Shown: piece by piece, positions 27,301 to 61,266 of the stretch
Position numbering within the stretch: the first letter of the stretch is position 1
Layout of the letters: every line of letters starts with the position of its first letter
Notes under the pieces: generated by a model
Told to the model about the DNA's origin: nothing
What the model saw: only the letters and a program-made list of their open reading frames with translations
Database searches by the model: none
Program-made: the position numbers and the translations under genes
Assembly: GCA_033977485.1 (NCBI GenBank)
Contig: CM066994.1
Span: 84,754,871 to 84,818,870 of the forward strand
Direction of reading: 5' to 3'
Source: Hydrangea macrophylla
Taxonomy: Eukaryota; Streptophyta; Magnoliopsida; Cornales; Hydrangeaceae
DNA: 64,000 bases

Positions 27301-30300
27301 CTCATCTCTCAACTTGTGTATCCTGCTAGATATAGCATCAACAGCTTTGATACATACATCAAGTTTTGTCAGCAACTTCCTTATCGAAGACTGAGTAGCA
27401 TCAATCTTACTAGTTTCAGCTCCTTGGTCATCCAAAACTGTCAGCCTCTTGCACATATTCTCGTATATAACTCGAAGTCTTTCTTCTTCCTTGAATCACA
27501 GCAACCACCATAAAACACTTCAGCATAATAGTATTAAAACTGACATAACAACAGTGGATCTCGATGTAGTATAGAAAAATGTCAAAAAAAAAAAAAACAG
27601 AGACAACAATCATGTGTGAAATGATGGCCGTAATACTACTGTTAGCAATAGTACTAACATTTACGATAACAATAATGCTGGCAGGGGTATAACAAAGTTA
27701 GGCTAACAAATCCAGTTCACAACATAAATAAATGCATACATACATACCAGGTGTTCACATTAGCTGTGAAAATTGACTGCTTTGGTCCGTTTTAATGACT
27801 GTCAAGGACTACTGCTAATATGGGAGTATCTATTCCTTTTCAAATAATGCCATAATTTCAGCATAACTTTTCTTAACTTACCACTAAAAACATACTAAAC
27901 AAGATAATTTATAAATATGTTGCAATTTTCTTAACTATAATCTAACATGGTTGTCCCACATCGGTTAAAGAGTAAACAGTCTAGGTTAGATCAAGCCTAT
28001 ATAAAGGCTCATTGTATTCTCTCATGTTATGTTGAATATACCAAAAGAGATATTCCCATCATACTTTTCATCTTTACATGGTATCAGAGCATCCGGCCTC
28101 TAGGATCGCTCATTATCTTTGTTTTTCCGCCTTTTTCGTTAATCAAGAAGTTCGGATTGTCAAATCTGTTTGAAGATTTGATGTTATTTCTTTTTTAAAC
28201 ATAACCCCCTAACCCTAGCAGCCACTATTCACGATCACTGTTCGTCGGCTACTATTCACGATCACTGTTCATCGGTTACTATTCACGATCGCTGTTCATC
28301 GACACTATTCACAGTCACTGTTCATCGGCTACTATTCACAGTCACTGTTCATCTACTACTATTCACAGTCACTATTCAGGGCTATTGTTCATTATTTTTC
28401 AACAACTATGGATTCCAAAACCACTTCCCAACTCACTAATCGTAAGTTGAATGGTAACAACTTCCTTCAATGGTCCAATGCTATTACCATGTCCCTTACG
28501 GGCTTAGACCACGATGCCCATCTTTCTGAGACTCCACCTACCGCCGATGAAAAAGCCACTAAGGCATGGAAACAACTGGACGCTCAACTTGTGACTCTTA
28601 TCTGGAATTCCATGGAACCGGATGTTGCCGATTTATGCAATCACTTGGGCTCTGTTAAGGCACTTTGGGAGTATCTCCACCTTCTTTACTCTAGTAACTT
28701 AACACGGATGTATGACTTGTCCCCTCAGTATTTCAAGCTCGAGCATAATGATTTGTCTGTTACTGATTATTTTGCTGCTATGAAACGGTTACATGAAGAG
28801 TTGAATACTATTATGCCCCCTACCACCAGTGTTCGAGATCAACAGAAACAGAGGGAACAAATGATGGTTATGAAGTTTCTTGCCGATCTCAAACTTGAAT
28901 ATGAGGCTATTCGGTTTTAAATTCTTGGGAGTGATAGTCTTCCTACTTTTGCTGAGACATATCAGCGTGTTCTACAGAGCACCCCTCGGGACCCACCTCC
29001 CTCCCCTTCACTTGTTGATCGCTCCGCCCTTATTACTCAGACTCCACCAGCTCTTGGTAGGAGTGGTGGTCCTAACCGTGGAAGACATGGAGGGGAATTT
29101 CGGGGTGGTCGTCCTGGCCGTGGTCGAGGCCAGACTCTCCAGTGCACTTATTGTTTTCGAGATGGGCATAGCAGAGACACATGCTGGCAGCTCCATGGTC
29201 ATCCCCACCAGGTTGCGAATGCTGCCATCTCTGATTCTGGGTACTCGCCTGTTATTACTCCTATGGATACCGTTTCTGTTCCTCGCGAGGAATACTCTCA
29301 GTTGCTTCAGTATCAGGCAGCACGCCAGGCATCCACCTCATCTGCTTCCTTAGCTCAGCATGGAGGTACACATACTGCTTGCATTGCTTCAGGTTCTTCC
29401 CCATGGGTAATTGATTCTGGCACTAGTAATCATTTGACAGGTATATCTAGTCTTTTTACGTCTATCTGACTGTCATTGTCTCTTCCCCCAATCACTTTAG
29501 CGGATGGGTTCTCGACTCCCGTTGAAGGAATCGGGATGGCTCAACCCTCTTCGTCTTTATCCTTGTCTTCTGTTTTGTACATACCTCGTTCGTCTTTTAA
29601 TTTAATGTCTGTTGGTCAGTTGACTAAGGATCTTAACTGTTGTGTCTTTTTTTCTCCTGATTCTGTTCTTATTCATAATTTGACGACTCGGAAGACAATG
29701 GGCGTCGGGCATGAGTCCAATGGCCTCTATTACTTTGATGGTGATCCTGTCCCTGCTCCTTCACCCACTGCCTGTCCTGCTATCGTTTCACTTCATCAGA
29801 TCCACTGCCGCCTCGGTCACCCTTCATTGGCTAATTTGAAGCTCTTAGTTCCTGGTTTAAGTTCTTTACAGTCTTTAGAGTGTGAGTCGTGTCAGTTGGG
29901 AAAGCATCATCGTGTTCAATTTGCTCCCCGGGTCAATTTAGTCCTTTTCAATTAGTGCATTCTGATGTATGGGGTCCTCATCGTATAACCTCCCAAAAGG
30001 GGTATCAGTATTTTGTTACTTTTGTGGATGATTATTCAAGAGTAACTTGGCTATATTTAATGAAAAATCATTCTGAGTTATTTTCTATTTTTTGTGCCTT
30101 TTGTGCTGAAATTAAAACTCAATTTGGTGTGCCAATTCGTGTTCTTCGAAGTGATAATGGAAAGGAATATTATTCTGACCCTTTCAGTACTTTTATGACA
30201 CATTCTGGCATAATTCATCAATCTTCTTGTGTACACACACCACAACAAAATGGTGTTGCCGAGAGGAAAAACAGGCATCTATTAGAAGTCACACGCACCC

Positions 30301-33300
30301 TGTTATTTGAAATGCGTGTTCTAAAATTTTTTTTGGGGGATGCTATTCTCACTGCTTGTTATTTGATTAACCGTATGCCATCTTCTATTCTCAGTGGCCG
30401 CACACCACACTTCAACTTGTTCCCTGTTAAGTCACCCTCTCGATCGTTCCTCGTGTTTTTGGGTGTGTTTGCTTCGTTCATCAGCTAGCTCCTAGTACTG
30501 ACAAATTAGACCCACGAGCCATTCAGTGTATATTCTTGGGATACTCTAGGACTCAGAAAGGGTACCGTTGTTACAGTCCTTCCCTTCATCGGTACTTTGT
30601 CTCTGCCAATGTCACATTCTTCGAGTCTAAACCCTTTTATTCAGAGTCCCACTCGGCTACTGATCCAGATTTTATGCTTCCTGTTCCTCTTCCTGTCTCT
30701 CCTATCCCAACTACTACACCACCTACTCATGATGCTTCCACCCGCTTGTCTCGACCTGAATTGCAAGTTTATACTCGTCGTCCACGTCCAGAGACTCTAT
30801 TGGACTCCGCTGCTCCGCCTCCGCCTACCGTGTCCTCAGATCCGCCATCATCTTCTCTAGAACCGATTGATTTAGATCTTCCCATTGCTCTAAAAAAGGG
30901 TAAGCATTCTTATACTACTTCTCATCCTATTTCTAACTTTGTGTCTTATGATCATTTATCTCCTGCATTTTCTTCATTTGTTGCTTCCGTGTCTACCATA
31001 TCTATTCCTAAGAATGGTGCAGAGGCACTTGCCCATTATGGTTGGAACCAAACTATACAGAATGAGATGTGTGCCCTTAAGGAAACTGGTACTTGGGACT
31101 TGCTCCCTCTCCCGCCAGGGAAATCTGTGGTTGGTTGCCGTTGGGTGTATGCAGTTAAGGTTCATCCAAATGGCACTCTGGATCGGTTGAAGGCACGCCT
31201 TGTTGCCAAGGCTACACTCAAGTTTATGGACTTGATTACTTAGAGACTCGCATTTTCATCTCACTGGCCACTACTTATCACTGGCCCCTTCATCAGTTGG
31301 ATGTTAAGAACGCATTTCTAAATGGTACCCTCCTTGAGGAGGTTTACATGGAGCAACCACCTGGGTTTGTTGCTCAGGGGGAGTCTAGTATGGTTTGCAA
31401 ATTAAAAAAGTCTCTTTATGGTTTGAAGCAGTCTCCTCGTGCTTGGTTTGGCAGGTTCAGTGATGTAATTGCTAAGTTTGGTCTTCAGAGATGTGGTGTT
31501 GGCCATTCTGTTTTCTATATACACACTGTAGCGGGGAAGATACTGTTAATTGTTTATGTTGATGATATTGTCATTACTGGTGATGACCCTAAGGGCATTC
31601 AAGAGTTGAAATCCTTCTTACAAATCAAGTTTCAGACCAAAGACTTGGGGCAACTTAGGTATTTCTTAGGCGTTGAGGTGGCCAGGTTTAATGAAGGGAT
31701 TTGCTTATCTCAGAGAAAATATATTCTTGATTTGCTGACTGAGACAGGAATGTTGGGATCAAAACCTTCGGATACTCCTATGGATCCCAATTCCAAATTA
31801 TTGCCAGATCAAGGGGAGCTACTTAATGATCCAAGACAGTACAGACGCTTAGTTGGGAAACTTAACTATCTAACGGTCCCGAGACCTGATGTTGCCTTCG
31901 CAGTTAGTGTAATTAGTCAGTTTATGGACTCTCCTCAAACTACACATTGGGATGCAGTGATACAAGTCTTGAGGTAGTACCTCAAGGGGGCCCCAGGCCG
32001 TGGTTTGTTGTATAAGGATCATGGTCACAATCGAGTTAAGAACTACACAGATGCAGATTGGGCAGGATCTCCTAGTGATAGAAGGTCTACTACAGGGTAC
32101 TGTGTACTTGTTGGAGGAAATCTTGTGTCCTGGAAAAGCAAGAAACAAACCGTTGTTGCTAGATCTAGTATTGAGTCGGAATATAGGGCTATGGCGCATA
32201 CTGCTTATGAGTTAGTATGGATGAAGCATTTGTTGGAGGAACTTGGGTTCACTCAGTCCGAACCTATGAACCTATTTTGTGATAACCAGGCAGCGGTTCA
32301 TATTGCTTCTAATCATGTGTTTCATAAGAGGACGAAACACATTGAAGTTGATTGTCACTTTGTTCGTGAAAAACTCCTACAGAAAGTGATTAATATAGTT
32401 CTTGTTAAATCTGCAGACCAGTTAGCGGATTTGTTTACTAAAGCATTGGGTGGGACACGTGTGAAATATATTTGTAACAAGCTAGGTGCATATAATATGT
32501 ATGCTCCAGCTTAAGGGGAGTGTTAAAGGGTATATGTGTAAATATAGTATATGTATATATGTGATTGTCACACATCGGTTAAAGAGTAAACAGTCTAGGT
32601 TAGATCAAGCTTATATAAAGACTCATTGTATTCTCTCATATTATGTTGAATATACCAAAAGAGATGTTCCCATCATACTTTTCATCTTTAAAAAACCGAA
32701 ATAGTCAGTTCACACGCGATCGATTTCGGTTTAAGCCGTTCGTTTGGGCTTTTAGTTTGGGCCTCATTCGGGCCAGACAATTTGAATTTTTAAGGAAGCC
32801 CAAAGATGACTAAAAGGCCGACTAAACAAAGCGAAGCCTAGAGCACCAAACCTGAAGCGAACTAAATCCCAAACAAAAGGGAGAAATGGGCGTCCCAAAA
32901 AAACCTAACACAGAAACTCAAAGATCAAGGAAAAAAAAAAAAAAAAACCATAAAAAATCATAAGCTTTGAGAGGATATGACTCATTGACAGGAGTTAGTT
33001 TTCAAAAATTGTCTGATTCAGATGCCACTGGTTGACCCAAAAAAAAGATGCCACTGCAAACCTTATGCTTATACACAAATGGAAAACCGTTACAAAAAAC
33101 CTCGAATTCGTGTTATTGATTCATAGTGTGTGAGGTTCTTTTGTGATGTATGTGAAAGATACAGAGAGATATAACACGCAAGCCTGGATTAGTACACGTG
33201 GAACAAATATGTGAGATATAAGCAAGAGTATATAAAATATAATAATAATGGCAATAGGAATAATAGGATTCGGAGAGACTTTGGGTTCGGATGAGAACCG

Positions 33301-36300
33301 AAGTAGTTCCAAGTGAGAGAGAGAGAAAGCAGTGTATATCCCGAGGCGATAGGTAAGTATTGGAATGTTCGGAGTGGAACGAAGGACGAGTTGAGACGAC
33401 GGGTGCAATAGGGCTAAAAAGGAAGTTTGGTGATGTGAACGGCGCTATGAGGCGGAGGATAGAATGAGACGAAGGTGCTGGTGGGGGCGAAAGGTCAAAG
33501 TGGGCTGGAGACTACGGGAATGTTTTGGCAATGGCTGGGAATAAGAATGACTGCTAATCCTTTACTCTAGTACCGGATTAGACCAAGTTAGGTTGTCGGA
33601 TGTAGTAAATGAGGGTGCTTATTTATAGTTGAAGCCGGTGGTGTATTTGCAAACCTTTGACATGATAGAGCAAGGCCGAGTTGGCATCCTCTTACTGGGT
33701 TGTTTGCTTAAGGTAGGTGAGGGGCTTAAATGCTGCTGTTTAGGGTGGTTGAGGGCATTAAATGGGATGTAGACGAAGCATGTATCGAGCTGGTGGAGAC
33801 AAATGGGAGAGAAATGTTTGTCGTTTGGTTATGAACTGATATCATTGGTTGGTCAAGGGAGGAGGAGGTGCTACTGGTGCAGAGGTTTCAGCGAGTGAAG
33901 GTACCGAGGCTTTTGCTATTGGCTCCGAGAGGTTAAACGAGGGCAAGTGTCGAGGCATGCAGACGGCTTAAGCGAGGGAGGGAACCGAGGTGTTTTCTAT
34001 TGGTGCAGCTGGTTAAGCAATTTTGACATGACTAAGCATAGACGGTCAAAGGTCCGACGAGATTTGCAGTAATGAGCTTTGCTTATTGGCTGTGGGTGGA
34101 TCGGGGTGAGGCACGTGTGAAAGTCACGTGTCTCTCTCTCTCTTTGGGCCCAACCCTAACCTTACCCGTAGGGCGCAGGTTAGGGAGATGCCTTCGGTTC
34201 TAGCCACCTTACCATGAGTTTCCGAGATCCCAATAGACTTGCCCACCCTTAGGTACTGCTTCCAAACCAAGGGTAGGTGTCCGAGTGTAAGTGTGTGCAT
34301 ATTTGGAATGTTCTTCCTTTGTGGGCTGCTTTAGGCTTTTTGGTGAGTGAAGTTTCGGAGTGGAGTTAAAGTGGGCCACTTTACGCCTTTGGAGAATAAG
34401 GCTTTCGGAATGGAGTTGACCGTGGTGAAGGCTTTGGAGTAGGCTCATCCGGAATGGGCCCTCGGAGTGGGCTTTATTAAAGTGGGTCTCGGGGGAGCTT
34501 CGTAGTTACCTACATTTGTAGTGTGCTTTGTGGGTGGGCCCGTTTGAAGTGGGCTAACGGTTTTGGAGTCGCTACACGTAGAGTCCACAATAGTGATGTT
34601 GTTACACGTGGAGTCGTCGGTGATGTGTATAGTCAAAGTACATGAGTTGTCGACTATTACCTACATTAGCCCCCCTGTCCGTATTCTAGGCGTGGAGCGG
34701 CTAGGATGCGGGCATAGTCCTTGCGTATCTTTCCCAGTTTATTTTGCTGGTAATTAATGGGCCTTCTCGTCTTTTGCGGGTCATGTTTTGTTGACAGTTG
34801 GATAGATGTCTCAACTTTTTGCAGGTAGTACTGTCCTTCTGGTGAGGTTTTTGATGTCGAATCTGGTTAATAGATTGGTCTGGTAAGTATTAGTGTTGCC
34901 TGCTGTGTATGTTCGTTGTGCAGTTCTGGGGTGGTAGTTATAAAAAGGGGAGGGTTGTGGAGACTGCATGCAACCCATCCTCAACGCATACTTGCATTCT
35001 TGCTCCTTTATAGTGTAAAACATGAGTTCCTTGTCTGGATTATTACCAGGTGAGGCAGGAGTGTTTTGGCGATGGTGCGGGGTCAAAATTTCTTGGGACC
35101 TCTGCTATGACCTGTATCAGACTTATGCGTGGAGTGGCGTTACAAGTTTTGCATAGTATATTTCTAGGGATCTTTTCTATCAGTGCAAAGATGGGGAGAG
35201 ATCCTTTCTAGCAGTGCACATGCTTTATTAGGCGGTGCGTGTTCTATCTGGGTGCTATGTCGTCGTGGTGCTTGGGATGAGTAACTGCTTTTTAGATCTT
35301 TCTCCGTGTTTTGGGGTGAGGATCACGATATTTGGGGCGGGCTGGTAATAACTGATGTTTCTGCTCTATTGCGCCGTGAGTTCTTCTTTCACGAAAGTAC
35401 TGGGCTACTGTGGCCTGGTATTTTTGTGCTTAGGAGATCCGGGCTGGATGCGAAATGGTTGTACAAGTTCTCCCTGAGATATCCTGATTTGAACAGTCAT
35501 TGGCCCGTGATGTGGTGATCCAGGCTTTGTTCCTCATCCCGAATCTGATTCCAATAAATCATGTGTGTGTCCTTGTAATGTATGTATTGGGTCTGTAAGA
35601 GACACGCATGTTTATCGTTGTCATGTATTGGTGTATGTATTGGGTCTGTAATGTTTCATAATAAAAATTGTATTTTGTGCTAGTCCTCTTGTACTTGTGA
35701 TTGGTGATTTTGACTCTTTGCCTTATTCTGTGAAAAACCATTAGGAGTGGTGGTCGGAGTCTATACTCATGGAGTCCCTGTTGTGGTGTGATGGAGTGTG
35801 CCTCTCAGAGGGGTGGGAGAGGTGTATCCTATGGAGAGATGGAGATGGGGAGTGTGCCCCTTGTGGGGAGTGTGCCCCGTGGAGAGAGAAGTTCCTATCT
35901 AAGTTCCTATCTGGAGAGGATACTGTATTTGAAGAGGCGATGTTGGGGAATGTGCCCCTAGGATATTTGGAGAGGCGATGTTGGGGAGTGTGCCCCTGGG
36001 TGAGGTGTGTGTTCCTGTACTTTGATTGACGTGTTTGTATGTATACGTGTACTCTGCATCCGTTCCAGTGGTCTATATATAAGTGTAGTAACCCCTTTAT
36101 GATCCTTTGTAGCGGATATACATATGGCTGACTCCACTTCGTCCCATGTTGTAAGAGGACGTCGTCCTCTTCCCGACTTATTTGGTAATTCAGAAGATGG
36201 TTGGAGGGGTGTCAAGGTGCATCACTGGTATGCTGAGTGTTTAGAGCGTGTTTATAATCATAGGCCTGATACTTTTGTTGATTTTGCTGATCGCGCTCCG

Positions 36301-39300
36301 GAGCAGCAATCTACCCTGCTGAATCATTTGGGGTATGTTTTGGATTACCTGTCCATGGTTACTTTGTCCACTAGTGATGAAGATGTGTATTGTGTTTGTT
36401 TCCCAAGAGTTCACATCATGATGGAAGCTGAGCTGCCAGTACAATGGTTGCTTCATCATTTGGAAGACATGCAGCAAAAATATTTTGTTTTTAAGATTGT
36501 GCTTCATAGGAAGAGTCTCGCTGTTCGTCGTAAAGAGATTTTGCGGGAGATGGAGAAATGTAAGGATGTTCTGTCGTGGCTGGGAAGACTTTTGAGGCCA
36601 GATAGTAGACAAATAGCTCTTTTTGAGGGTCATGAGAAAGACCTGATGGGTTTGGAGAGTGAGCTGGCGGTGATTCAACGAGAACTTGCGGAGGTTGTTG
36701 CCAAAGAGCTTCCTCTTCGTCCGTTTGTAAACGAGAACGGCCTTCATGAAGATTACGAGCTGGACACCGGGCTCTTTTGATCGGAGTCTCCAACGCTGTC
36801 CCCCTTGATAAATGTAAACATATATAGAATATATTTTTGTTTGTTTGCATAGTGGGTAGCAGATCCTGTGTGGTGTAGTATCCTGTATTTTGTCGCCATG
36901 TGGTTAATGTGATATGGCACGTGTTGCGTTTTGTCTTGATGTTCCTTTATTGTCTGTCTATATATTGTGGGTTTGGGTGCATCTTGAGTTCCTCATATGT
37001 ATTGCCTTTGTGTGCTTGATTTTGTTTCATTGCAGTGTGGTTGGTTTTGTTTGTGGAGATGTCTGGTGTTGGGTCTTCCGGAGGTTCTTCGTGGGGTTTG
37101 CCACTGCCAGAGTCATTTGGAGATGCGGAGGATGGCTGGAGAGGTGTGAGGCTAGATCAGAAGTTTTTTGATAATCTAGAGCAAGTTTACCAACGATATC
37201 CTGAAACTTTTGTTCGTTTTGGACGAATTGGTGCTAGATCTCAATCCGATTTACTAAAACGTCTTTGCCGGATTCTGCGCCGCTTGCGGAAGACGACGTT
37301 AGAGGAGGCCGATAATGATTTCTTTGCTGGCTTGCTAGAACAGGTGCGAAATCTGGTACAAGATAGACTGGCGGTCCACTGGTTGCATTCCCATGTAGAG
37401 GAGATGGAGCGTAGGTATGACCTTTTTGAGCCAATGTTGGAGCGGCGTGCTGCTTTTGATACTTATTTGGAGTTGGAGAATTCTGTGGCCGAGTGTGCAC
37501 GAACTATGGGGCGTTACGAGAGTATAGTGTGCGGTGGCAAGCGGGTTGGCTCTCTAGATCCGAACACGGTGGAGTTTATTGAAATGTATGAAGCTGAGCA
37601 TCGGCGTTTTTTGGAGCTGAAACGGGAATATGCAGATGCTAATGTTCGTTTTGAAGCGGCTAGAGCTGAAGTGTCTGCTGTTGAGCAGCAAATTCGTGAA
37701 CTGGGTTTGCATATTAATTACAAGTTGGATACCGGCTTGTTTGGCTAGCCAGACCTTTAGTTGTATTTGAAGGCATGGAGTACCTGTTTTTTTTTTATTT
37801 TTTATTGTTTTGTTACTGATATTAGGTGGAATATATGTATGTCTTTATTTTTGCTCCGAGCAGTGGCGGCTTTGTCCACTGTTGGTATCTTAATGACTGT
37901 AATGGAGTTGTGGTTTGCAAAAGAAGAAAAAAATTTTTATTGTTTAAATCTGCTTATCTCGGGCACCTTCAGTAGTGTTGAAATTAAAACAAAAAAATTT
38001 AAGAATGAGGGTATTGTACGAAGGATAATAACCAGAGGATATGGACGTGTAGAGGATCAGAGTGTATTTTTGATTCTTTCGTAGAGAAAAATCTGGCAAA
38101 GATTTAATTGTACTGGCGATGTGAGTGAGGGGACTAGTGATCAGGAGCTAGTAACTTAAATAGGGACCATGGCCGGATAGGCTGCGTGTTTTAAGTGGGA
38201 GCTCCTCTTGGTTTTTTTTTTTTTTTTTTAAAGTTAGTTGATAGGGAGTAAAGGAAGAAGAAGAAAAGAAGAAGAGGAAGGAAAAGGAAGAAGGAAGGGG
38301 TATAGACATTGGAGGCAAGCTTGGAGTGGAGACACCATTGGTGGTTTCTCAAGGTATGGATTTCTCTTTGTCTCCTACTTCCCCCTATGTGTAGATGTGT
38401 GTATATATGTGTTTGTATGTGTGTAGTTGTAAAGTGGGTTGGAGTTTGTATGTGTAAGGAGATGGGTCCATTGGGAGGGCGGGAGGTGGTGAAATCGGGT
38501 GGGGGGGGATAGTTTGGTGGTGGTGGTGTGGCGAGGCGGGAGGTCCGTGAGGGAGAGGGGTGGGGAGCCGAAGGCAGAGCTAGGGGCCGATGCCCCTTTT
38601 TTTTTTTTAGGTTTCCGATGATTCCGAAGGGGGGGGGGGGGGGGGATTGCCGAGTGGGTGGGGGTGTTGCCGGAGGTGGGGGGGGTTTCCAAATGGTGGA
38701 GGAGGGCCGGCGGTGTATTTTGGAGAAGGGGGCCAAGAGGGAGAAGGTTCCGAGAGTGAAAGAGGGTGATCCGAGAGTTAGGGGCCGAAAGCCCCTTTCG
38801 GTTTTTCTTTTTTTTTTTTATTCCGAATGGGGGAAGTTCCGGAGGTGGGGTTTCCGATGGGGGTTTCCGAACGGTATGAAGGGGCCGAGTGGGTGTGGGT
38901 TTCCGGAGGGGATTCCGAGAGTGTTCGGATCCGAGGGTCCTTCGGGTGTGTTTCTTTTTTTTTTTTTATATATACGAGAGCGGGTTGGGTGTTCGGAGGG
39001 TGTGGCAGTTCGGGGGAGGTGCCGAATGTGGGGGTTGTTCCAAAGGTGGTTCCGAGGGTGGTTTGGGGTTTCCGAAGGTGTGGGAGTTTCGGTTTTTGTT
39101 TTTTTTTTTTTTTAGGATAGGATTCCGAAGGGGGGGGGGGTTTTCCGAGTGTCGGGTTGGTGGTTCCGAGAGTGGGAGCAGGTTTTCGAGGGTCGGGGTG
39201 GTGGTTCCGAGGGTGGGGGAGGTTTCCGAGTGTCGGGGTGGTGGTTCCGAGGGTGGGGGGAGGTTTCCGAGTGTCGGGGTGGTGCTTCCGGGGGTGGGGG

Positions 39301-39529
39301 AGGTTTCCGAGTGTCGGGGTGGTGGTTCCGAGGGTGGGGGGAGGTTTCCGAGTGTCGGGGTGGTGCTTCCGGGGTAGGGGGGAGTTTCCGAATGTCGGGG
39401 TGGTGCTTCCGGGGTAGGGGGGAGTTTCCGAATGGGGGAGATCCGGGTGAGGGAGAACCGGGGGTGGGCGTCGGGTGTGTTCGGGTAAGGGGTTCCGGTG
39501 TTGGGGTTCGGACCCCTATTCTGAGTGTC

Positions 39530-39573
<44 letters not shown>

Positions 39574-42500
39574 CCGGAAAAAAAAAAAGGGGGGGGGGGG
39601 GGAGATTTCCGGAGGGTGGGGGAGCTTCTAAGGCTTTGGGTGTTTCGCATGTTACTTAGCGGGTGATGGTTTGCGAGAGGGCGAGTGTATGTTCGGGAGA
39701 AAGAGAGTGATGCGATAGGTTGAGAGGGGGAGTCCGAGAGTTAGGGGGAGTGATCCGAGAGTTAGGGGCCGGAAGCCCCCCTCTTTTTTTGCAAAGGGTT
39801 TTTGAATGTGGGGGTTCGAGTCTCCCTCTGTTTGATAATGAATAATAACGACGTTTAAAACAAAAAGAGAGATTGATGTTGGAGGGGACTAACCTTGTCG
39901 TTGTTGTCTTTTGATTTTTAACAGTATAGTTTTATTGCCGTTGGTTGCAAAGCTCTGTGATTCTTATCAAGATGTATTGTTTTGCAGCATTCTGTTACTC
40001 GGTGCTGATCCTTTTTCGGGATGGTGCAAGAGCTTGGTGGTGGGGCAGGTGATCCTCCAGTTATAGGTATTGATGAAAGATTTTGGCAGCGTGCCCCATA
40101 TATACTTACAGATGATAGCTTCTGGCAGTTGATTGTTGAAAGTGTAAATGGAGGTGGCATATGTTCTGAGGTGGATAGTGCGGCGAGGTTTGATTTGCCG
40201 CCTGCTCATGCTATTATTCGATTGGGTGTGGAGAGAGGTGAATATCCTCATGCTGTACTGAAGTTTGTATCTGCTACGGGGGTTGCCCAGTGTGAGGCGT
40301 GGAACGAGTGGACGGAGTACATATTGGCAAACTTTGAGACTGTTCTGAAGGAGGCGCGGATTTATGACTCTATTTGTTTATTTAGAGATATGAGGTGTAC
40401 TTTGGAGGAGAGGGAGATATTGACTTTGATTTCCCGGTGGTGTCCAGTTACACATACATTTGTTTCTGCATGGGGTGAGTTTACCCCTACTTTGGAGGAT
40501 GTTTCCTCTCTGTTTTTATTGAATATTATTGGTGGCTTGGATTTTGGCTCCTACCAGCTTTCAGCGGAGGATATGGTGGTAGTTGGGGCATTAGAAGCCG
40601 GTACCTTAGCCTGTCAGTTTACTTCGCATTTTCTGAGTGATGGGAAGGAGAGGCCCAGGGGTCCTATTCCGAACGGAGATAAGGCGGATTATCGTGCTTT
40701 TCTTCGATATTTCTGGGAAGATCGACAACCTGGTGCGAAGCGGCGGCATCGAAAGAGTTTTGTTGGGCAGGGTAGGGATTATAGTCTTGCTGCTTATCTT
40801 GTGTGTTGGCTCTCAAGGTACATATTTGGAGGTGCCCCGGAAGACGGGCCTTGCTCACATTTATTCGGATTGGCTTCTATTTTATCACGCGGGCAGGCTC
40901 TCCCATTAGCACAGATGTTTCTTGGCTCTCTATATTTGCGATTAGATATGGTGGCCCATGATATGCGGCGCTCGGTGGGGCGATATGATATTGCTACACA
41001 TGTATCATATTTATTTTTGCAGCTGTTTTTGTATGAGAGATGGCGTGGATATGCAGGACCCGGGTCTCCGAGAGGGACGTCTAAGTTTTGGGGACAGCGA
41101 TGGGGTTCTGAGGTACAACCTGAGTTTCCTTTGGCTCAGGTTATTGATGATGAGTCTGCGTTTATTTTTCGGCCGTATATTGAAGTTGTCGATATGACCT
41201 CGTTACCGGTGCCGTTGTTTCGTCGGGTTGGGACTCGGAGTGTGAGGAGGAGTACTTTAGGAGGTGAGGAAGCGGATGTGGTGGCCGCCGTCTATGCTGT
41301 TACACGTATGTACTTACCTGGGTTTACTGAGCGGGGGGCCCGTGAGATGGTGTACCGTCCAGATAGAGTATGTAGGCAGTTCGGCCTTAATCAAGGAGCT
41401 GTGGTTCTAAATTCGTCGTGTCCGCTTGTCGGTTTGCGTGACTGTTATGAGGGACGTAGTAGCATGGGTCCTGACACAGTGTTATTAGTTGGGCCGGAGA
41501 CTTCTGGTGTTTGTGTAGGCGACTATGCTCTCTTTTGGCGACATGCTCAGGCGAGGTTTTATGCGTATTGTGATGGTGTGCCTATGCCGGTGTCGGTGCC
41601 GCGGATAAGAAATGCGGACCCCTCGTTACGAGTGATAAGTAGTAAAGATGGTACCACTCGTACTCATGATGCTTCCAGGTGGGGTAAATCCCGTTTTTTT
41701 GACCGATTACAGAGGAGTGTTGTATTAGTTGATGGAGTTGAATGGGATAGTGGTTTCGCCTTGATTGAGTTCGATAATTCTGAGGCCAGTCCCATGCGGA
41801 GAAAGAAACACGTGAGCCTTTCTTCTTCTTTTTATATCATTATTATCCATAATATAAAAAGCCTCTGTTGATTACGTTTTTGTCTTCTACATTTTCAGGT
41901 TGTGCCTCACACTGTAAATAAAAGGAAGAGAAAAAGTGGGGGTAAGAGGCGCGAACCCATTATCATTGATACGGAGGACACCGAGGATACCAGTGATGTA
42001 GGGTTATCAATTCCTTCGGATGATATTCATGACATTCCTTTCTATGGTACAGCTGTGGAGGATTCGCTGTTGGTGAATGCGGGTGTTGCTCCGGTTACAC
42101 GCCCGCGCATGGAGGAAGTGTTTATGTGTGGTGAAGTGGGAGATGGTTCGATTGACGAGTCTCGGGAGAATCAGGCGTGTAATATTAGTTCAGAGGATGG
42201 GCGGCGGGAACGATTCGAGGGAGTGGACAGTGACACGTCGGATGAGGTCGTGGAGCGTATGGAGCTACCGGTGATGGACACTTCGGGTTCTGCCTCTGCC
42301 TCGGTTGGATGTATTTTTGGTTCTATCCGTTCTTTGGATGGTGTTGGCGGTACGTATTTGGCTGAGAGTGGGCTTTCACTTTCCGATTCTGGTTTCGGTA
42401 GGTTTGCAGGTTCCTCCTGTAGTGGGGATACTGTTTTTGGGACGGCCACCGGTGGTGTTGGGGTAACTGTGGCGCTTGGAGCTTTTCGATCCGGTAATGA

Positions 42501-43320
42501 TACGACTTTAGAGCTGCCCTCAACTGAAATCGGTGGGCGGACGTCGGGCTCTAGTGCTATCTATCCTCTGTCGTTTGGGGGGACTACTGATTCGATTTTG
42601 GGGTCGGCTTCCGAGGCGGTTGGTGTTACTGCTTCTGTAGTAGCTCCTGTCGCAGTGTCTTCGTCCGAAGGTGAGTTATCTGTTCCGAGTTTGGCAAGCA
42701 TTCTGGGGGAAGTGCCTAGTGACGTTCCTTTCCCGCCTCTTGCGCATGTTACTGAGAGGGCTGTGTTGAGTATGATATATCGTCGTTATCCTCAGACTTT
42801 TTCTTCTTCCGTTATGAAGGTTGCCGCGGGTTTGAGATCATTTTTCTTAAGTACACTTGCGTCTATAGTTTGGAGCTTGTTTGCCACGAATGTGGAGGAT
42901 TTAAGTGGAAGCCTTCTTAATAACATGGCGAGCGAGCTTGCGTCTTTTAGAGAGGTTATGGGCTCTGATGTGAGTTGGTTGGAGTCTCGTGTAGCCTTGG
43001 TTAGGGTAGCCGCTGGGTTGAGATGTGCAGATACCGAGATGGCTGGCGTGAGTACGAGGATGGTGGAGATAGAACAGGAAGAGGTGGAATTAGAGCGCCG
43101 GTTGGCGGCACTGAAGGTGGAGAAGTCAAGTCTTGGGGATCGCGAGAGGGCAATTATTAAGGTTCGTGCATATTTGGGTACTTTGGGTACTTTTGAGGCT
43201 AGTGACCTTCAGATGCCTGCGGGTAGTCCTGGGATTGGCGCTCTGTTTCCCGCCGTGGACATAGATGCTCTTCGTGCATTCCGATAGTTGTTCCTTTGTC
43301 CGAGTAGAGATATGTGCTAT

Positions 43321-43374
<54 letters not shown>

Positions 43375-46300
43375 CGTGGCGGATATGTCCATTGTAATGT
43401 ATATCCCCCTCTTTTGTTTATCTTAAAAGAAAATTTTATTTTTAATGCATGTTTTAATTTTTATGCAATATATGTGATATTTGTGTATCGTCGGAGACAG
43501 GGGGAGAAATTGGGTGGGATAAGTTGCGAACAAATGTGATAAGGATAGTTGCTCCGAAAGAGGATAGAAAAGTAAAAAATAAATAAATAAATAAAAAGTG
43601 TTTATATGTCCACACGTGGCACGTACAGAGATTAGGAGGTGGGGTTAGATTTTGCTAGAAGGTTTGTGTGGTTACAACGTGCTAGTGTACGGTTTGCTTT
43701 TAAGTAGTGTATATAAGAGGAGTATGTATAACATTCTTGTTGAGTATTTGAGTATTAAGTGGGCTAAAGTATGGCAGGCTCGTCATGGGCGTCAAATTCG
43801 GGGCCGGGCTTTTCACGGCTACCGGAGACGTTTGGGGATACGCAAGATGGCTGGCGAGGTATTCCCGTATGGGAAATACTTGTGCCTTTTTTGGAGAGGG
43901 TGTATGTACACCATCCACAAACTTTCATCGGCTTAACATATATGAATCAACCAGAACGATTATTAGCTTGTAAGATGTTGGGCAATGTACTTTTAGAGAT
44001 GTCTAGGACTAAACTAGGGGATGCCACTTACGATTATATGCAGCGAGTAAGAGGTGATATACATGATATAAGCACACAAGGGCTGCGTCTGTTGTGGCTG
44101 ACGGAGCATCTGGACATGGTGGTTTTACTGCGACAATTTGTGGAGGCTAGACGGCGAAGGCTTTTTGATGAGCGGCAATTTGTTGCTGTCGGCGAGAATT
44201 TCCGGAGAGCTCGAGTGGAATTGGTAACTAATGCTGGTCAGTGGAGGAGGTCGGGAGTGCCTCGCTCGTCGCAGCAGGAGGCTCAAGCATTGCGGCTTCA
44301 GGCGGCCGTGGATCGTGGTGAGGAGGAGTACAAGCTGTTTGAGGAGAGACTGGCGAGGTCGAAAATAGTGGAGCAACGTTCGCGGACAGGGATTTCTACG
44401 GACGAAGTTACGAATGAAACATTGGTGATTGCAGGGTTGTTTGCGGAGTAAACAACTACTGTTGAGTTTAATGGATATCGAGTGACCTTTGTAATCTAGG
44501 GGAGTTGATTTTTTTTTTTTTTAGCTGGGTGCTTTGTTTAGTAATGTGGGGAGAGTAACTTTGAAAATATTAAGTTGTTCATGAATGTTGTGGTACATAT
44601 CTTCTTTCGACTAACAACTTTCTCTAGTGCAAACAAAACAGTAGAACAAAAAGATGATAAACAAAAGTGCTGGCTAGGCATGATATAGCTTTAACCATTG
44701 GGTGTTGATTGGTCCAGATATGGATTTTTCACCAACCTTCTGGATCCTATAATACCCGCTGGGGTTTGCTTCCTTAACTTCATAAGGTCCTTCCCACTGC
44801 GGCGTGAATTTGGGCGCCGAAATACCACGCATGATGTGCTTGGCTGCCTTCAAAATTAAGTCTCCTTCCTTAAAAGCTCTGGGTCGGACCATAGCATCGT
44901 AAGCCCGTGCGATTTGCTTTTGGTACTTTTGGAGGTTTGATTGCGCCTTGTCCCTATGCTCATCCAGCTGCTCGAGCATAGTTGGGCGAGGGTCATGTAG
45001 AACCTCGCTTTTCATGGCAATTCGGGCAGAGGCCACCACCAGTTCTGTGGGTAAAACTGATTCGGCTCCATAGACCAAGGAGAAAGGAGTCGCCTGAGTT
45101 GGTCGTCTCTTGGAAGTTCTGTAGGCCCAAAGAGCTAGAGGGAGTTGGTCGGCCCAAATCTTGGGACAGTCCTTCATCGTCCTGCTTAAGATCTTCAGTA
45201 GTGTTTTATTTGTTGCCTCGGCCTGACCATTGCCTTTTGGATAATAAGGAGTGGACTTGTGGTGGGTGATGTCGTAACTTAGGAGGAGCTGTCCCACATG
45301 CTTGTTGATAAATGGTGTTCCGTTATCGGATAGGACTACTTTGGGGATTCCGAAACGGCACACAATGTGCTCTCGGATGAAGGCCGCGACTGCCGGCCCG
45401 ACTGCTTTCCGCATTGGTATGGCCTCCACCCATTTGGTATAGAGTTCTGTTGCTGCGAGGATCCAAATATTGCCTTTAGACGCCGGAGAAATTGGCCCTA
45501 TGAGGTCGAGGGCCCAGGTGTGAAATGGCCATGGTGTTGATAGTGCTCGCAAGTCAACGGCAGGTGCATGGATTCGATTTCCGTGGATTTGGCAAGGATG
45601 GCATCTCTTGACATGATTTTTTGAATCTTCTTCCATTGTTGGCCAGTAGTACCCCAGCCCTAAGAGATGGCGGTATAATTTTGTTCCCCCTTGGTGCTCA
45701 AACCCATGTGCTTCAGTCAAGACTTGGTGAATTTCTCCCCCAGCAAGACATCGCAGTGGCTCTCCATTGAAGCTGCGACGAAACAGCTGCTTCTCGTGGA
45801 TAAAGAACTTCGAGGCCCGCTTCTTTACTATGGCTGCGTCGGTTCTATCGGGGGGAAGAGAGTTCTCGTTCAAATAATCCATATATGGGTGGCGCCAATC
45901 TGATATCTGATCCGTAAAATTGCATTCTTCCTTGCTCGGATCCTTCGAACATTTCGAGCAAGTCTGCTGGAGCATGGAGGCCTCTTTAGACATTTCGGGC
46001 CAGTAGTACCCTTTCCTCTGTATCATCCGATAAAGACTAATATCCTTGTCCCCGCACGTATTTTGGTGAATCTGGCGGAGTCGAAGTTTTGCCTCTCCTT
46101 CCCCCACGCATCGTGCTAAGACGCCTGTGGGAGCGCGAAAATAAAGATTGCGTCCGAGGAGGGTGAAGCTTTTTAGGTCCGACACTTTTATTTTTCCTTC
46201 ACGACTCGATAATTGGGTGATGATAGATGTTCTCCAGTCGTTGATTTCCTCGGGGGGGAGTAGTTCCAAAACGGTGCATGGTAGAGTTCTTTTGATGATT

Positions 46301-49300
46301 TCGATTTGGGTGGAGCCTTCGGGTACATCGATTTTTGAAGCCAAAGTCGCCAAAGCATCTGGGAAGCGATTGTCCGACCTTGGCGCATGCTCCATCCGGA
46401 TGGCCTTAAATTTATCCAATAGCCTTTGAACTATGGTCCTGTATTCTGCCAAAGCTGGCTCCCTGATCGCGAATTCTCCTGAGGTTTGTTTGACAACAAG
46501 ATTGGAGTCGCCCTTGATGCACAGGCGGGTGACTCCCATATTAGCGGCCGCCAGGAGTCCTAATATTAGCGCTTCGTACTCCGACTCGTTATTTGAGCAT
46601 TTGAAGTCAAGCTTATAGGACAAATGGAGCTTGGAGCCGTCTGAGTGAGATATCAAGTTGATTCCTGCTCCTCCTCCCAGTGACGTAGAGGACCCGTCGA
46701 AGCTGAGAGCCCATTCCCCGAGGTCTTTGGTTGCCATTACACAGTTAAGTTCTTCTCCCGGAAGTGTTTCCCAAGGCGGTTCAAATTCTCCACTGGGGAA
46801 CTGGGCTAGTAGATCTGCCAAAGCCTGACTTTTGATTGCTTTTGGTGTCACGCAAGTGATATCAAATTCGGCCAGGAGAAGGAGCCACCTCGCCATTCGT
46901 CCTGAGAGAGCAGGCTTAGATAGGAGATATCGCAATGGGTCACACCTCGTAACCAAGTGTACGATATGACTGAGAAAGTAGTGCCTGAATTTTTGGGCTG
47001 CGAATGTGAGTGCGAGACAATGCCGCTCGATGGGCGTGTATCTTACCTCAGCATCACGGACCACCCGACTAATGTAGTATACCGGTTTTTCTTTTCCGTC
47101 AATCTCCTGGGCAAGGAGTGCCCCGATAGATTTGTGCGTGGATGTGAGATAGAGGAGCAGCGGTTTTTCCTGTGTTGGAGCCACCATGGTGGTGGGAGCT
47201 GACAAAGTTCTCTTGACAGCTTCGAAAGATTGCCGGTGGACTTCTTCCCATCTGAATTTGGCTTTCCCCTTCAGCAGATCTCCCAGGGGGTGAGATATCT
47301 CTGACAACGCTGGAATGAATCTACGGAGATAGGACACCCTTCCCATGAACTGCTTTAGTTGCTTCTGAGTACTTGGCGGTGGCATGTCCATGATTGATTT
47401 GGCCTTTGTCGGGTCTAGGTCGATGCCATGGCGATGGACTATGAATCCGAGGAATTTTCCCGCCGTAACCCCGAAGGCGCACTTGAGTGGATTCATCCGG
47501 AGCTTGAATTTTCTGCAACGCTCAAAAACGGCACGGAGATCGTTTTCATGGCCTTTCCCTTGTCTGGATTTCACTACGATATCGTCCACGTAATCCTCCA
47601 AATTATGGTGGAGCATATCATGGAAGATGGTCGTCATTGCCCTTTGGTAAGTGGCGCCTGCGTTCTTCAGTCCAAAGGGCATGACGGTGTAATAAAAATT
47701 GCCAAAGGGGGTACGAAAGGCTGTCTTTTCTGCGTCTCCTGGATCCATTTTGATCTGATTGTAACCGCTGAACCCATCCATGAAGGAGAAGTCTTGATGC
47801 CCGGAGGTGGCGTCGATTAGAGTATCGACATTTGGCAGAGGGAATTCATCTTTCGGGCATGCTTTGTTTAGGTCCCTGAAGTCGACACAAATTCTGATCT
47901 GTCCATTCTTCTTTTTCACCGGTACCACATTTGCCAACCAAGTAGGGTGCTTGATGGGCTTAATGAACCCTGCATGAAGGAGTTTCTCCACCTCGGTTTT
48001 AATTTGGAGTTCTAGTTCATGCCGAAACACTCGAGGTGCTTGCTTCACCGGCCGGTGGTTTGGATCGACGTTGAGCTTGTGTGTTACCAAGGACGTATCC
48101 AGTCCCGGCATCTGTTCGTATGTCCAGGCGAATACGTCGATGTATTCCTTGAGAAGGGAAATCAACGTGGCTCGTTCCTCCGAGGTTGCTGCTTTGGAGA
48201 TAAAGGTGATACGAGGGGTTCTCCCTTCTGGTGCGAGATTAATTTCCTCTATTTCTGGTCCTGCGGTGCGTGGTCCATCCTGGAACGTTTCCGGGGCTAC
48301 CCCAGGTTCGGTAGCTTCAGGTGTCCCTATGGTATTGCATTCTGGGGCTTCAGGGCCGCGAGGTGTAGCTTGTGGTCCCGGCCCCGCGCACCGTCATAAG
48401 CAGCGGTATACGAAGCGTCCGTCAGGGAGCTTGACTCGAATGCATTCCGGGGAAACGCTACGGCGACGTTTCTGTTTCCCCTTCGAGGAGAAATCTTCTT
48501 TCCGGGCGTCCTCCCATTTTGGTACGGTCAGGCCGCGTGGTGAGACTGGTGGTGTGGCCTCCTCTTCGGAACAAACATCCTCGAATAGTTCCGCTTCCGC
48601 CATATGAGCCTCGTGATTCCCAAACGGTTTTAGGGTCCCGGCTACGGTGAATACTTTCCTTCCCTCGCTAGTATTTACTTTTCCTTTCATGCATTGATGG
48701 TAGGTGGATGGTACGATGCCGAACGTGTGCATCCATTTGCGTCCTATTAGGAGATGATAAGAGGTATCTGCATCGATCACATGGAATCGGGCCGGTGCTT
48801 GGAACTTTCCAAGGCGAAGTGACGTGGTGACAAACCCAATCGTTCGGCGTGTGTCATTGCCGAACCCCGCGATGTCTGTGGCCTGTGGAATCAGTTTCTC
48901 GAGGGAGATGCCAGTTGCCCTGAATGTGGTTAACGACATGATGTTGAGGGAGGCTCCTCCGTCTAGCAATGCTCTTTTGAACTCTCTTTCGTGGACCGTG
49001 GCTGACACATACAACGGGCGATTGTGTGGGTGTGGGACCTGTATGTCCGCATCCGTGAAGGTGATCGCTGACTCAGCCTCTAAAGCAGCGCGACGGACGG
49101 AACCCCCGGTGGCTACGCATGCTTGCTGGTAGGTTTCTGCCACTTGTAGGATAGCTTTGGTGGCTTCAAGGCGTGCTTCCTCACAGAATCCAACCTGATC
49201 AAAGAAATATCTGAATTTGGTGAGGTTCTTGACTTTTGACGCTGTGAATTCCATGGTGCTCCGAGAAGGGTTTGTCATGATCATACTGGTGGATGGATTT

Positions 49301-52300
49301 CTAGCGATTGGTGATGTTTCTTCTTCTTCTTCTATGAGTTCGATGAGAGGAGCCGTCATTCCCACATGCGACAACCCACTAGGGTGATCGATGGTAGGAG
49401 ACGCAATTTTTCGCAAGTGGTGGGAAGCCATGTGGAGGGAAATCATATTAACAGCTCCTTCGTTGTGTCCCCGCAGTTGGCGAGGTATTTCTTCAGCAGC
49501 ATCTGGCTGAGTAGTGGTTACCAGCTCTCCGTTGGCTATTTTCCTATGGAAGATGCCGCGAAGGGCCCAGCAGTCCTTGGTTGCGTGCTTTACCATCTGG
49601 TGATAAGCACAGTAATTATACCTGGCCTTGTCACCTTCTGTCGGAGGTCTTGTGGGCGGGCGAAGGGTGATTACTTCATCTCTTATCCATTTCTTGAGTA
49701 CGGCATGTACTTCCTTCATGCCGCAAGGGAATGGAGCCGGTGCGTCAGTTTCGTCCCTTCTGCGCTTGTTATCATTGCATTCTCGGTCTCGTCCACTTCT
49801 TCTTTCTTCGGTTACAGCAGCGGTTGGATAACGACGGGGTGCCGAAGGGCGGGTATCTCGGTGTATCCTTGATGGTATTCTCACATCCTTTGCTAAGTTT
49901 CGTGCAGCAACCATGAGATCTGAGAATGCCGGGAACGAATGATTGATGAGGTGAATCCTGTAGTCGCGGAGCATTCCATGTACACAGAGCTGGACGAGAC
50001 CTTCTTCAGTGGTGTTGTCGTGGCATTCCATGGCGAGATCGCGAAACCTGTCCACATACTTAACCAAATGCTCATTTTCACCTTGGACTTCTCGGGAGAG
50101 GGAGATGGTGGTAACTTTTTCCGTTACGCTGAAGAATTTCGCGTGGAACATTGAGGCCAGTTGAGCCCAGGAATTAACGGAACCAGGCTCTAGGTTGGCA
50201 TACCAAGTGTATGCCCGGTCGGTCAAGGATTTAGAAAATTCTCGAAGACGCAAGTTTTCGTCTTCTCGGTAGGTACCGAGACCGTCGAGGAATCTGGCCA
50301 TATGTTCTTTGGAGTTTCCTCGCCTGCCGTCGTACCTTGCAAAGTGTGCGCTGCTGTATCCCTCTGGATAAGGGAGGCTGGCCAATCTTAGCGGATAAGG
50401 AGGTCGGGTGTCTAGTGCTGGAATATGCGGGATTGATAGAGCTTTTTCCTTCAATAATGATTCCACCTCAGCCAAGGTGACAAATCCGGTGGGGGTTTGC
50501 TTCTCCGTCCCGGAGACGACACCGGTGGGTGTTGATTCTTTTTGTGCGTTCTGCTGATTGTTATTGTTAACATCGGAAATGTTAAACGAGGTTCTGACCG
50601 CGTCTTCCAGCCCAGAGGCGCCGTTTGGCGCCGATGGGGGAGTCACTTTCTGGGCCATAGCGGTCAGGGTTTCGATGATGAGGTGGTTCTGCTCTTCCAA
50701 TCTCTGGAAGTGCTTTTGCTGTCCTTCTATTTGTTCTAACCGCTTTAAGATGTCGAGCTCGACGTCAGCGGCGATGGATTCCCGAGAATCCTGAGTCTGT
50801 GAGTGGGTTGGATTGAGGCTTACTGGGTTGATGTTTGACCCGGTAGGTTGGGCCTTGGACTTCCTGGGGCGTCCAGACTTTTTGGGAGGCGGTTGTTCTC
50901 GTTCGCTAACCATACTTGCGAGTATATCTCCCACTGTGGTCGCCAAAATGTGTGAGGTTCTTTTGTGATGTATGTGAAAGATACAGAGAGATATAACACG
51001 CAAGCCTGGATTAGTACACGTGGAACAAATATGTGAGATATAAGCAAGAGTATATAAAATATAATAATAATGGCAATAGGAATAATAGGATTCGGAGAGA
51101 CTTTGGGTTCGGATGAGAACCGAAGTAGTTCCAAGTGAGAGAGAGAGAAAGCAGTGTATATCCCGAGGCGATAGGTAAGTATTGGAATGTTCGGAGTGGA
51201 ACGAAGGACGAGTTGAGACGACGGGTGCAATAGGGCTAAAAAGGAAGTTTGGTGATGTGAACGGCGCTATGAGGCGGAGGATAGAATGAGACGAAGGTGC
51301 TGGTGGGGGCGAAAGGTCAAAGTGGGCTGGAGACTACGGGAATGTTTTGGCAATGGCTGGGAATAAGAATGACTGCTAATCCTTTACTCTAGTACCGGAT
51401 TAGACCAAGTTAGGTTGTCGGATGTAGTAAATGAGGGTGCTTATTTATAGTTGAAGCCGGTGGTGTATTTGCAAACCTTTGACATGATAGAGCAAGGCCG
51501 AGTTGGCATCCTCTTACTGGGTTGTTTGCTTAAGGTAGGTGAGGGGCTTAAATGCTGCTGTTTAGGGTGGTTGAGGGCATTAAATGGGATGTAGACGAAG
51601 CATGTATCGAGCTGGTGGAGACAAATGGGAGAGAAATGTTTGTCGTTTGGTTATGAACTGATATCATTGGTTGGTCAAGGGAGGAGGAGGTGCTACTGGT
51701 GCAGAGGTTTCAGCGAGTGAAGGTACCGAGGCTTTTGCTATTGGCTCCGAGAGGTTAAACGAGGGCAAGTGTCGAGGCATGCAGACGGCTTAAGCGAGGG
51801 AGGGAACCGAGGTGTTTTCTATTGGTGCAGCTGGTTAAGCAATTTTGACATGACTAAGCATAGACGGTCAAAGGTCCGACGAGATTTGCAGTAATGAGCT
51901 TTGCTTATTGGCTGTGGGTGGATCGGGGTGAGGCACGTGTGAAAGTCACGTGTCTCTCTCTCTCTTTGGGCCCAACCCTAACCTTACCCGTGGGGCGCAG
52001 GTTAGGGAGATGCCTTCGGTTCTAGCCACCTTACCATGAGTTTCCGAGATCCCAATAGACTTGCCCACCCTTAGGTACTGCTTCCAAACCAAGGGTAGGT
52101 GTCCGAGTGTAAGTGTGTGCATATTTGGAATGTTCTTCCTTTGTGGGCTGCTTTAGGCTTTTTGGAGAGTGAAGTTTCGGAGTGGAGTTAAAGTGGGCCA
52201 CTTTACGCCTTTGGAGAATAAGGCTTTCGGAATGGAGTTGACCGTGGTGAAGGCTTTGGAGTAGGCTCATCCGGAATGGGCCCTCGGAGTGGGCTTTATT

Positions 52301-61135: not shown

Positions 61136-61266
61136 ATCAACCAGAACCACCCCCAAATCTAAACCCTAACTCATTCAAACTCAACTCTACTACTATGACT
61201 TCCAAACCTCTCCATACAAAAAAGCATTGCGCAGCAGAATTCAAGCACCAGAACAGAGAGATTTAT

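Follow-up and report, generated by a model that had tools for sequence, protein, structure and literature searches.

Why would a plant retrotransposon carry, next to its own polyprotein frames, a block of genes that all run in the opposite direction, and are these genes kept as proteins? The question is raised by a window of 64,000 nt of Hydrangea macrophylla (GCA_033977485.1, contig CM066994.1, positions 84,754,871–84,818,870, forward strand); the window is the whole stretch analyzed, and coordinates below refer to it. A Tat-type Ty3 retrotransposon of 19,361 bp occupies positions 33127–52487 on the minus strand. Between its pol frame and its 3′ long terminal repeat (LTR), a block of about 10 kb (34666–44673) contains, in this order, the small genes s1 and s2, a gene encoding a plant mobile domain (PMD) protein, and the small gene s3, all on the plus strand. 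Comparison of copies from the same genome showed that the antisense genes are kept as proteins by purifying selection, somewhat less tightly than pol, and we consider the anatomy of this antisense module and the selection on it practically certain.

Antisense genes and the selection on them

An antisense gene block in an intact Tat-type element had been proposed in a preliminary description made from the sequence alone, and the distribution of frames confirmed it. All ATG-initiated frames of at least 200 aa in the block lie on the plus strand: those of s1, s2, and s3 (218, 229, and 226 aa, respectively), one of 616 aa at 40021, and one of 392 aa at 42109, which falls within PMD exon 2. On the minus strand of the block, the single ATG frame of at least 150 aa has a length of 168 aa. 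Among 500 dinucleotide shuffles of the block (one strand), one contained an ATG frame of 218 aa or longer, and none contained four. The long minus-strand frames at about 38.2–39.6 kb were rejected as genes; they are a product of T runs and of G-rich tandem repeats. The same description had recognized three small paralogs and a spliced PMD gene, and both were borne out: BLASTP among s1, s2, and s3 gave E-values of 5e-30, 9e-16, and 2e-15 with identities of about 26–33%, and PMD exon 1 matched PF10536 with 85.3 bits. The predicted spliced PMD protein has 1059 aa, with a basic cluster spanning the splice junction (residues 593 on) and an acidic linker rich in Ser, Gly, and Thr (residues 598–858).

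A search of the genome itself (2.22 Gb, 19 contigs) with s2 gave at least 150 scored matches among 876 candidates. Twenty copies, every third rank among the first 59, were sampled, and eight shorter loci were also included in the calculation of the ratio of nonsynonymous to synonymous substitution rates (dN/dS). Pairwise dN/dS was calculated for open copies only, with broken ones omitted, and pairs with dS outside 0.05–1.5 were dropped before medians were taken. The median values of s1, s2, and s3 were 0.22, 0.13, and 0.13 (235, 214, and 50 pairs), and those of the PMD domain in exon 1, exon 2, and the C-terminus of pol were 0.14, 0.23, and 0.05 (36, 6, and 63 pairs), respectively; this pairwise set counts three copies twice (L002/L009, L005/L010, and L008/L011). 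The wrong-frame medians of the same pairs were 0.73–1.85, with no value for frame 2 of exon 2. In a protein-guided set without the doubles, the values were 0.21, 0.10, and 0.13 for s1, s2, and s3, and 0.14, 0.33, and 0.22 for the PMD domain, linker, and C-terminus, respectively. A single tree-wide omega was 0.25, 0.12, and 0.12 for s1, s2, and s3, 0.14 for the PMD domain, and 0.30 for exon 2. The apparent frameshifts of exon 2 in the pairwise set are largely gaps of nucleotide alignment at 73–81% identity, and the exon-2 frame is open in eight of the copies concerned. Because dN/dS of the antisense genes (0.13–0.23) is well below the wrong-frame values, these genes are kept as proteins; selection on the frames, as had been suggested, thus holds, and they do not evolve neutrally.

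These values bear on the possibility that the block consists of passengers, whether genes captured from the host or noncoding transcripts of the antisense strand, from which the element derives no protein function. The function of the extra open reading frames (eORFs) of such elements has been questioned, according to the sections of the survey used here (Neumann 2019, PMC6317226), and the window copy is young enough for its frames to have survived by chance: the neutral probability that four genes stay open over the time implied by the LTRs is about 0.31–0.87, depending on the indel rate. At such a probability, the intact frames beside nearly identical LTRs, which had been read as a sign of selection, lose their force, and we rejected the argument from LTR youth. 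On the other hand, dN/dS far below 1, wrong-frame controls near or above 1, and a gene order conserved among copies with an s3 dS of about 1.8 speak against passengers, and we regard this explanation as highly improbable.

Conservation of the module and exchange of the PMD gene

The genes s1, s2, PMD, and s3 were found in the same order and orientation in 15 of the 20 fetched copies. The exceptions were L025 with a truncated s3, L019 with a rearranged s3, L011 without s3, L021, whose retrieved stretch has no s1, and L027 with only part of s1 plus s2. In L019, a second PMD fragment lies on the opposite strand (oriented positions 9333–9899) and s3 is split by a rearrangement; judging from this layout, elements are nested or rearranged at that site. 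Genome-wide, a scored s2 match lies within 7 kb of 62 of the 73 scored PMD matches (1954 candidates), and 200 randomizations averaged 0.06 such cases and never exceeded 1; the other 11 PMD matches may simply have unscored s2 genes. The module is directly beside pol in the copies whose stretch reaches that far.

The base composition of the block points in the same direction. The sense strand of the Tat element has more A than T and more C than G across the LTRs, the spacers, and the genes of both orientations, and the flanks are near zero. At the 4-fold sites of the five antisense coding segments, read in sense orientation, we counted 344 A, 143 T, 257 C, and 111 G, and those of pol and gag-pro share this lean. 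An ordinary preference for T-ending codons could account for the excess of A over T in the antisense genes, s3 being without an A/T lean. For the excess of C over G, a strand bias during replication of the element is the better explanation. The asymmetry is common to the block and the element, and we take it as moderate evidence of a long residence of the block in the Tat element.

This result, together with the copy comparison, is difficult to reconcile with the idea that the genes were under selection chiefly as host genes prior to capture, or that the block forms a nested transposon of its own. PMDs do occur also in host genes and Mutator-like elements (MULEs), as stated in the part of the study drawn upon here (Ikeda 2017, PMC5418596). 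However, the same gene set recurs in many element copies with pol directly beside it where reached, the block has the strand asymmetry of the element, and no inverted repeats bound it. A nested DNA transposon was rejected in particular, as none of the six weak inverted pairs in the block bounds it. We consider this origin scarcely credible.

The PMD genes fall into classes, which were set by exon 2 identity among the 20 copies. Class A, which is similar to the window copy, has seven members (L013, L014, L015, L016, L018, L025, and L028), class B has eight (L009, L010, L011, L012, L019, L020, L023, and L024), and class C has three (L021, L022, and L026); L017 is an A/B mosaic, and L027 is without PMD. 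Class C retains the architecture, protein identity being 41% across the PMD domain and about 32% across the C-terminus, and the PF10536 match of its member L021 (98.6 bits) exceeds the cut-off.

Comparison with the window copy revealed that L012 has dS values of 0.02, 0.08, and 0.01 in s1, s2, and s3, and of 0.42, 1.06, and 0.60 in the PMD domain, linker, and C-terminus, respectively. The corresponding values of L009 were 0.02, 0.01, and 0.01, and 0.48, 1.02, and 0.57. The DNA identity of L012 is 94–100% up to about 40.36 kb, 69–91% up to about 43.66 kb, 98–99% over the next 1.2 kb, and 91–96% at the end; read in this way, the L012 sequence is a swap of almost the whole PMD gene. The break of L017 is inside exon 2, with a dS of 0.94 in the linker and 0.09 in the C-terminus. 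Judging from these patterns, the PMD gene is traded between copies like a cassette, and at least two copies nearly identical to the window copy in s1–s3 carry long-diverged PMD alleles.

The coexistence and exchange of several long-diverged PMD classes would suit a system of self-limitation or competition, in which the module represses its own or rival copies in the manner of host PMD proteins and the PMD classes set the targets. The host PMD-C proteins MAIL1 and MAIN of Arabidopsis promote a silencing of transposable elements that depends on neither DNA methylation nor small interfering RNA, according to the portion of the study used (Ikeda 2017, PMC5418596). However, the family is abundant, with the scored s2 matches given above, and shows no sign of strong self-limitation; this explanation appears quite unlikely.

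Shared domain and possible function of the module

The preliminary description had counted a PMD protein and three related small proteins. The set stands, and the domain count requires correction: the small-protein domain occurs four times, in s1, s2, and s3 and, in divergent form, in the last 201 residues of the PMD protein, which had been missed. BLASTP of s2 against PMD exon 2 gave an E-value of 5e-5, and that of s3 against PMD exon 2 was not significant. An early hhalign comparison with a three-sequence profile gave a score of 30.1 (best of 200 shuffles, 26.0) and a probability of 26. When 36 small proteins were compared with 14 PMD C-termini, hhalign gave a probability of 96, an E-value of 4e-9, and a score of 65.1, and the controls reached at most 22.0 (200 column shuffles) and 15.9 (11 real control segments).

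AlphaFold2 placed helices of s2 at residues 34–46, 48–51, 59–78, 86–101, and 107–159, with a mean predicted local distance difference test value (pLDDT) of 85.9 and a predicted template modeling score (pTM) of 0.74. For the PMD C-terminus, helices were placed at residues 23–35, 37–40, 49–68, 76–93, and 98–174 (mean pLDDT 70.1, pTM 0.50). The helices of the two models are alike in order and about alike in length, the PMD C-terminus model not being independent as its alignment included s2. The tail of s2 is predicted to fold as an antiparallel coiled-coil hairpin, and a comparison of the s2 model with the PDB yielded no specific match. A weak likeness to PEARLI-4 (PF05278; cut-off 29.9 bits) was found for the PMD C-terminus (26.3 bits), for s2 in the same register (13.2 bits), and for exon 2 of L009 (17.3 bits), and s1, s3, and exon 2 of L021 had no match to this family. 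Since all scores are below the curated cut-off, assignment of the small proteins to PEARLI-4 was rejected, and the likeness is a lead only.

A role in the element cycle as a structural, particle, or envelope-like component has to be weighed here, as the coiled-coil hairpin suits assembly and the site between pol and the 3′ LTR is the env site in retroviruses. Against it are the antisense orientation and the nuclear-type basic cluster; furthermore, none of the four proteins has a 19-residue window with a mean hydropathy of at least 1.6 or a hydrophobic N-terminus. Such a role is very unlikely.

The small genes are preceded by TATA-like sites (Table 1), and the chance of finding such a site within 40–110 nt at all three is about 2.7e-4. 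Across the copies, a TATA-like site lies 30–130 nt upstream in 18 of 21 cases for s1, 12 of 21 for s2, and 17 of 21 for s3, with 11.7% in random windows; these counts include cross-hits to a paralog in L021 (s1) and L011 (s3). A hand count without cross-hits and partial genes gave 17 of 19, 12 of 21, and 16 of 18, respectively.

Taken together, the block is best explained as an accessory-gene module of one Tat-type family, in which each of the four antisense genes is probably its own transcription unit. The antisense placement would allow the genes to retain an intron and terminators, which in sense orientation would cause splicing or truncation of the genomic RNA. A nuclear location is suggested by the PMD family and by the basic cluster across the splice junction, via which the PMD protein would enter the nucleus. 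The helical domain common to the four proteins suggests a complex, in which the small proteins would bind one another and the PMD C-terminus via the helical and coiled-coil parts of this domain. The complex might interfere with host silencing, for example through competition with the host's own PMD proteins in the MAIN/MAIL1 pathway. Specificity would reside in the PMD subunit, which diverges fastest and is exchangeable. This chain as a whole, up to a nuclear anti-silencing complex, is our favored but tentative explanation, the function of the module being inferred; it seems possible, somewhat short of probable.

The nuclear-type basic cluster would also suit a PMD complex that holds the integration complex at particular chromatin. 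In the copies examined, the module adjoins pol, and chromodomains serve as targeting domains in other Ty3 lineages, according to the sections consulted of a survey (Neumann 2019, PMC6317226). However, separate antisense genes would be odd for an integrase that elsewhere has its targeting domain in cis, and the window copy, which is one site only, is inside an apparent host gene. Steering of integration had been suggested in the preliminary description, beside a counter to host silencing; we consider it unlikely.

Several observations weigh against an anti-silencing complex. Genomic RNA and antisense mRNAs coexisting in a cell can form double-stranded RNA, inviting silencing, and the link to MAIN/MAIL1 is one of domain family only. 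The TATA-like site of s2 is present in just the 12 of 21 copies mentioned above, that of s1 was not found in the class C copies L022 and L026, and none was found within 1 kb of the PMD gene. Segment exchange is common among LTR retrotransposons, and the exchange of the PMD gene need not be selected. Despite its fast divergence, PMD has an omega well below 1, which is no sign of positive selection. Frames are broken in 6 of 28 rows for s2, 8 of 16 for exon 1, and 3 of 16 for s3 (locus rows). Frequent stops had been named in the preliminary description, beside dN/dS near 1, as a sign of neutral evolution; stops are present, as expected of decay after insertion, and dN/dS is not near 1.

Known systems offer partial parallels to the proposed anti-silencing module. 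VANC of VANDAL elements is an anti-silencing protein borne by a plant transposon; it belongs to a DNA transposon, and the protein is not known to be related. Maize Grande, a Tat-type element also named in the preliminary description, has an antisense gene downstream of pol, a single gene that is not known to be part of a linked set. MAIN and MAIL1 are host genes that share the Pfam family with the element PMD and are related to it by this domain family only; they may be its target or a model for its action.

The presence of PMDs in Gypsy elements, mentioned in the preliminary description, is already published, including for Ogre elements (Neumann 2019, PMC6317226; Ikeda 2017, PMC5418596); the statements that follow refer to the sections of these papers covered here. 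In the survey, 57% of Ogre elements have PMD, and PMD-carrying Ogre/Tat elements resemble the present one in that an additional PMD gene is present and a second RNase H (aRH) separates RNase H from integrase (Neumann 2019, PMC6317226). The eORF threshold of the survey was 250 codons, so genes of 218–229 codons would be passed over as a rule; whether eORFs have a function was posed there as a question, and we met no mention of small genes linked to the PMD gene, of a domain shared with it, of selection acting on eORFs, or of an exchange of PMDs (Neumann 2019, PMC6317226). The PMD-A1 and PMD-A2 clades are exclusively Gypsy-encoded, which is the one feature of these clades found here, and anti-silencing was speculated for MULE-captured PMDs; PMD was treated alone, and we met no mention of partner genes, of their kinship to a PMD C-terminus, of selection on such a set, or of PMD exchange (Ikeda 2017, PMC5418596).

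In the present family, several genes of the eORF type are maintained as proteins, linked to PMD, and share a domain with it, and the question of eORF function becomes a test of one defined complex. Because host PMD proteins act in silencing, the module is a place to seek an interplay between retrotransposons and methylation-independent silencing. A more specific form of the anti-silencing explanation, which we find attractive but doubtful, is that the quartet is a hetero-oligomeric arms-race effector with three small adaptors and PMD built on one duplicated domain. PMD would then be a traded, multi-allele specificity locus (three classes, down to 41% identity) that escapes or subverts host PMD silencing, which may itself descend from such elements.

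Structure and surroundings of the element

Table 1. Features of the Tat-type element and its antisense block in window coordinates.
Feature	Position	Strand	Description
3′ LTR	33127–34665	−	TG..CA ends; 1537/1539 identical to 5′ LTR
TATA-like site, s1	36074–36083	+	46–50 nt upstream of ATG
s1	36124–36780	+	218 aa; small antisense gene
TATA-like site, s2	36959–36964	+	100 nt upstream of ATG
s2	37059–37748	+	229 aa; predicted helical domain and antiparallel coiled-coil hairpin
Tandem repeat	39123–39431		G-rich 40–41-bp unit, 7.6 copies, s2–PMD spacer
PMD exon 1	40021–41811	+	Residues 1–597; PF10536 85.3 bits (cut-off 34.9)
PMD intron	41812–41898	+	GT..AG, 87 nt, 71% AT; predicted from sequence
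PMD exon 2	41899–43287	+	Linker 598–858, small-protein domain copy 859–1059
TATA-like site, s3	43710–43717	+	59–61 nt upstream of ATG
s3	43771–44451	+	226 aa; small antisense gene
pol frame	44674–48393	−	Reverse transcriptase, RNase H, RVT_3, H2C2, integrase
gag-pro frame	48394–50913	−	ATG 36 nt past 5′ LTR; TGA end; PF03732 gag
5′ LTR	50949–52487	−	1537/1539 identical to 3′ LTR

The LTR pair differs at 2 of 1539 positions without gaps, the target duplication CTATG is present on both sides of the element, and the polypurine tract and a TGG-type primer-binding site are in place. In pol, the reverse transcriptase is at residues 159–319, RNase H at 409–510, and RVT_3, the second RNase H, at 565–684, followed by H2C2 and rve; the aspartyl protease matches of gag-pro in Pfam were weak. 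The frames gag-pro and pol share one reading frame with a single TGA between them (48394–48396, minus strand), which precedes CGG. TGA-CGG is a context of viral stop-codon readthrough, and the RNA fold downstream of this TGA was not significant.

By domain order, the polyprotein has the aRH of the Tat clade, located between RNase H and integrase, an order described for Ogre and Retand, angiosperm subclades of Tat, in the sections used of the survey (Neumann 2019, PMC6317226). According to the same sections, Ogre has two polyprotein frames about 274 bp apart, with an intron where studied (Neumann 2019, PMC6317226). Assignment to Ogre was rejected, as gag-pro and pol lie in one frame with the lone TGA between them and without such a gap.

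In the spacer between s2 and PMD, the identity is low (54–85%) to several copies that are close elsewhere. Unbroken T runs on the plus strand extend over 37 bases at 39531–39567 and over 53 bases at 43322–43374, the latter shortly 3′ of the PMD gene.

Outside the element, a frame at 59555–61165 (minus strand) contains DUF630 and the start of DUF632 (59558–61165), and a frame at 20526–21395 (minus strand) contains the end of DUF632 (20529–21395). These frames look like two parts of one host gene around the Tat element, which is oriented in the same direction as this apparent gene. A Ty1/copia element at 27948–32690, with short terminal repeats (129 nt matched, 95%) and broken frames, adjoins the Tat element, and both probably sit within an intron of a host gene of about 40 kb. 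Within 8196–10407, a remnant Ty3 reverse transcriptase was found (PF00078 at 8196–8729), and the frame beside it at 9868–10407, which had no Pfam match, has an integrase-like reading.

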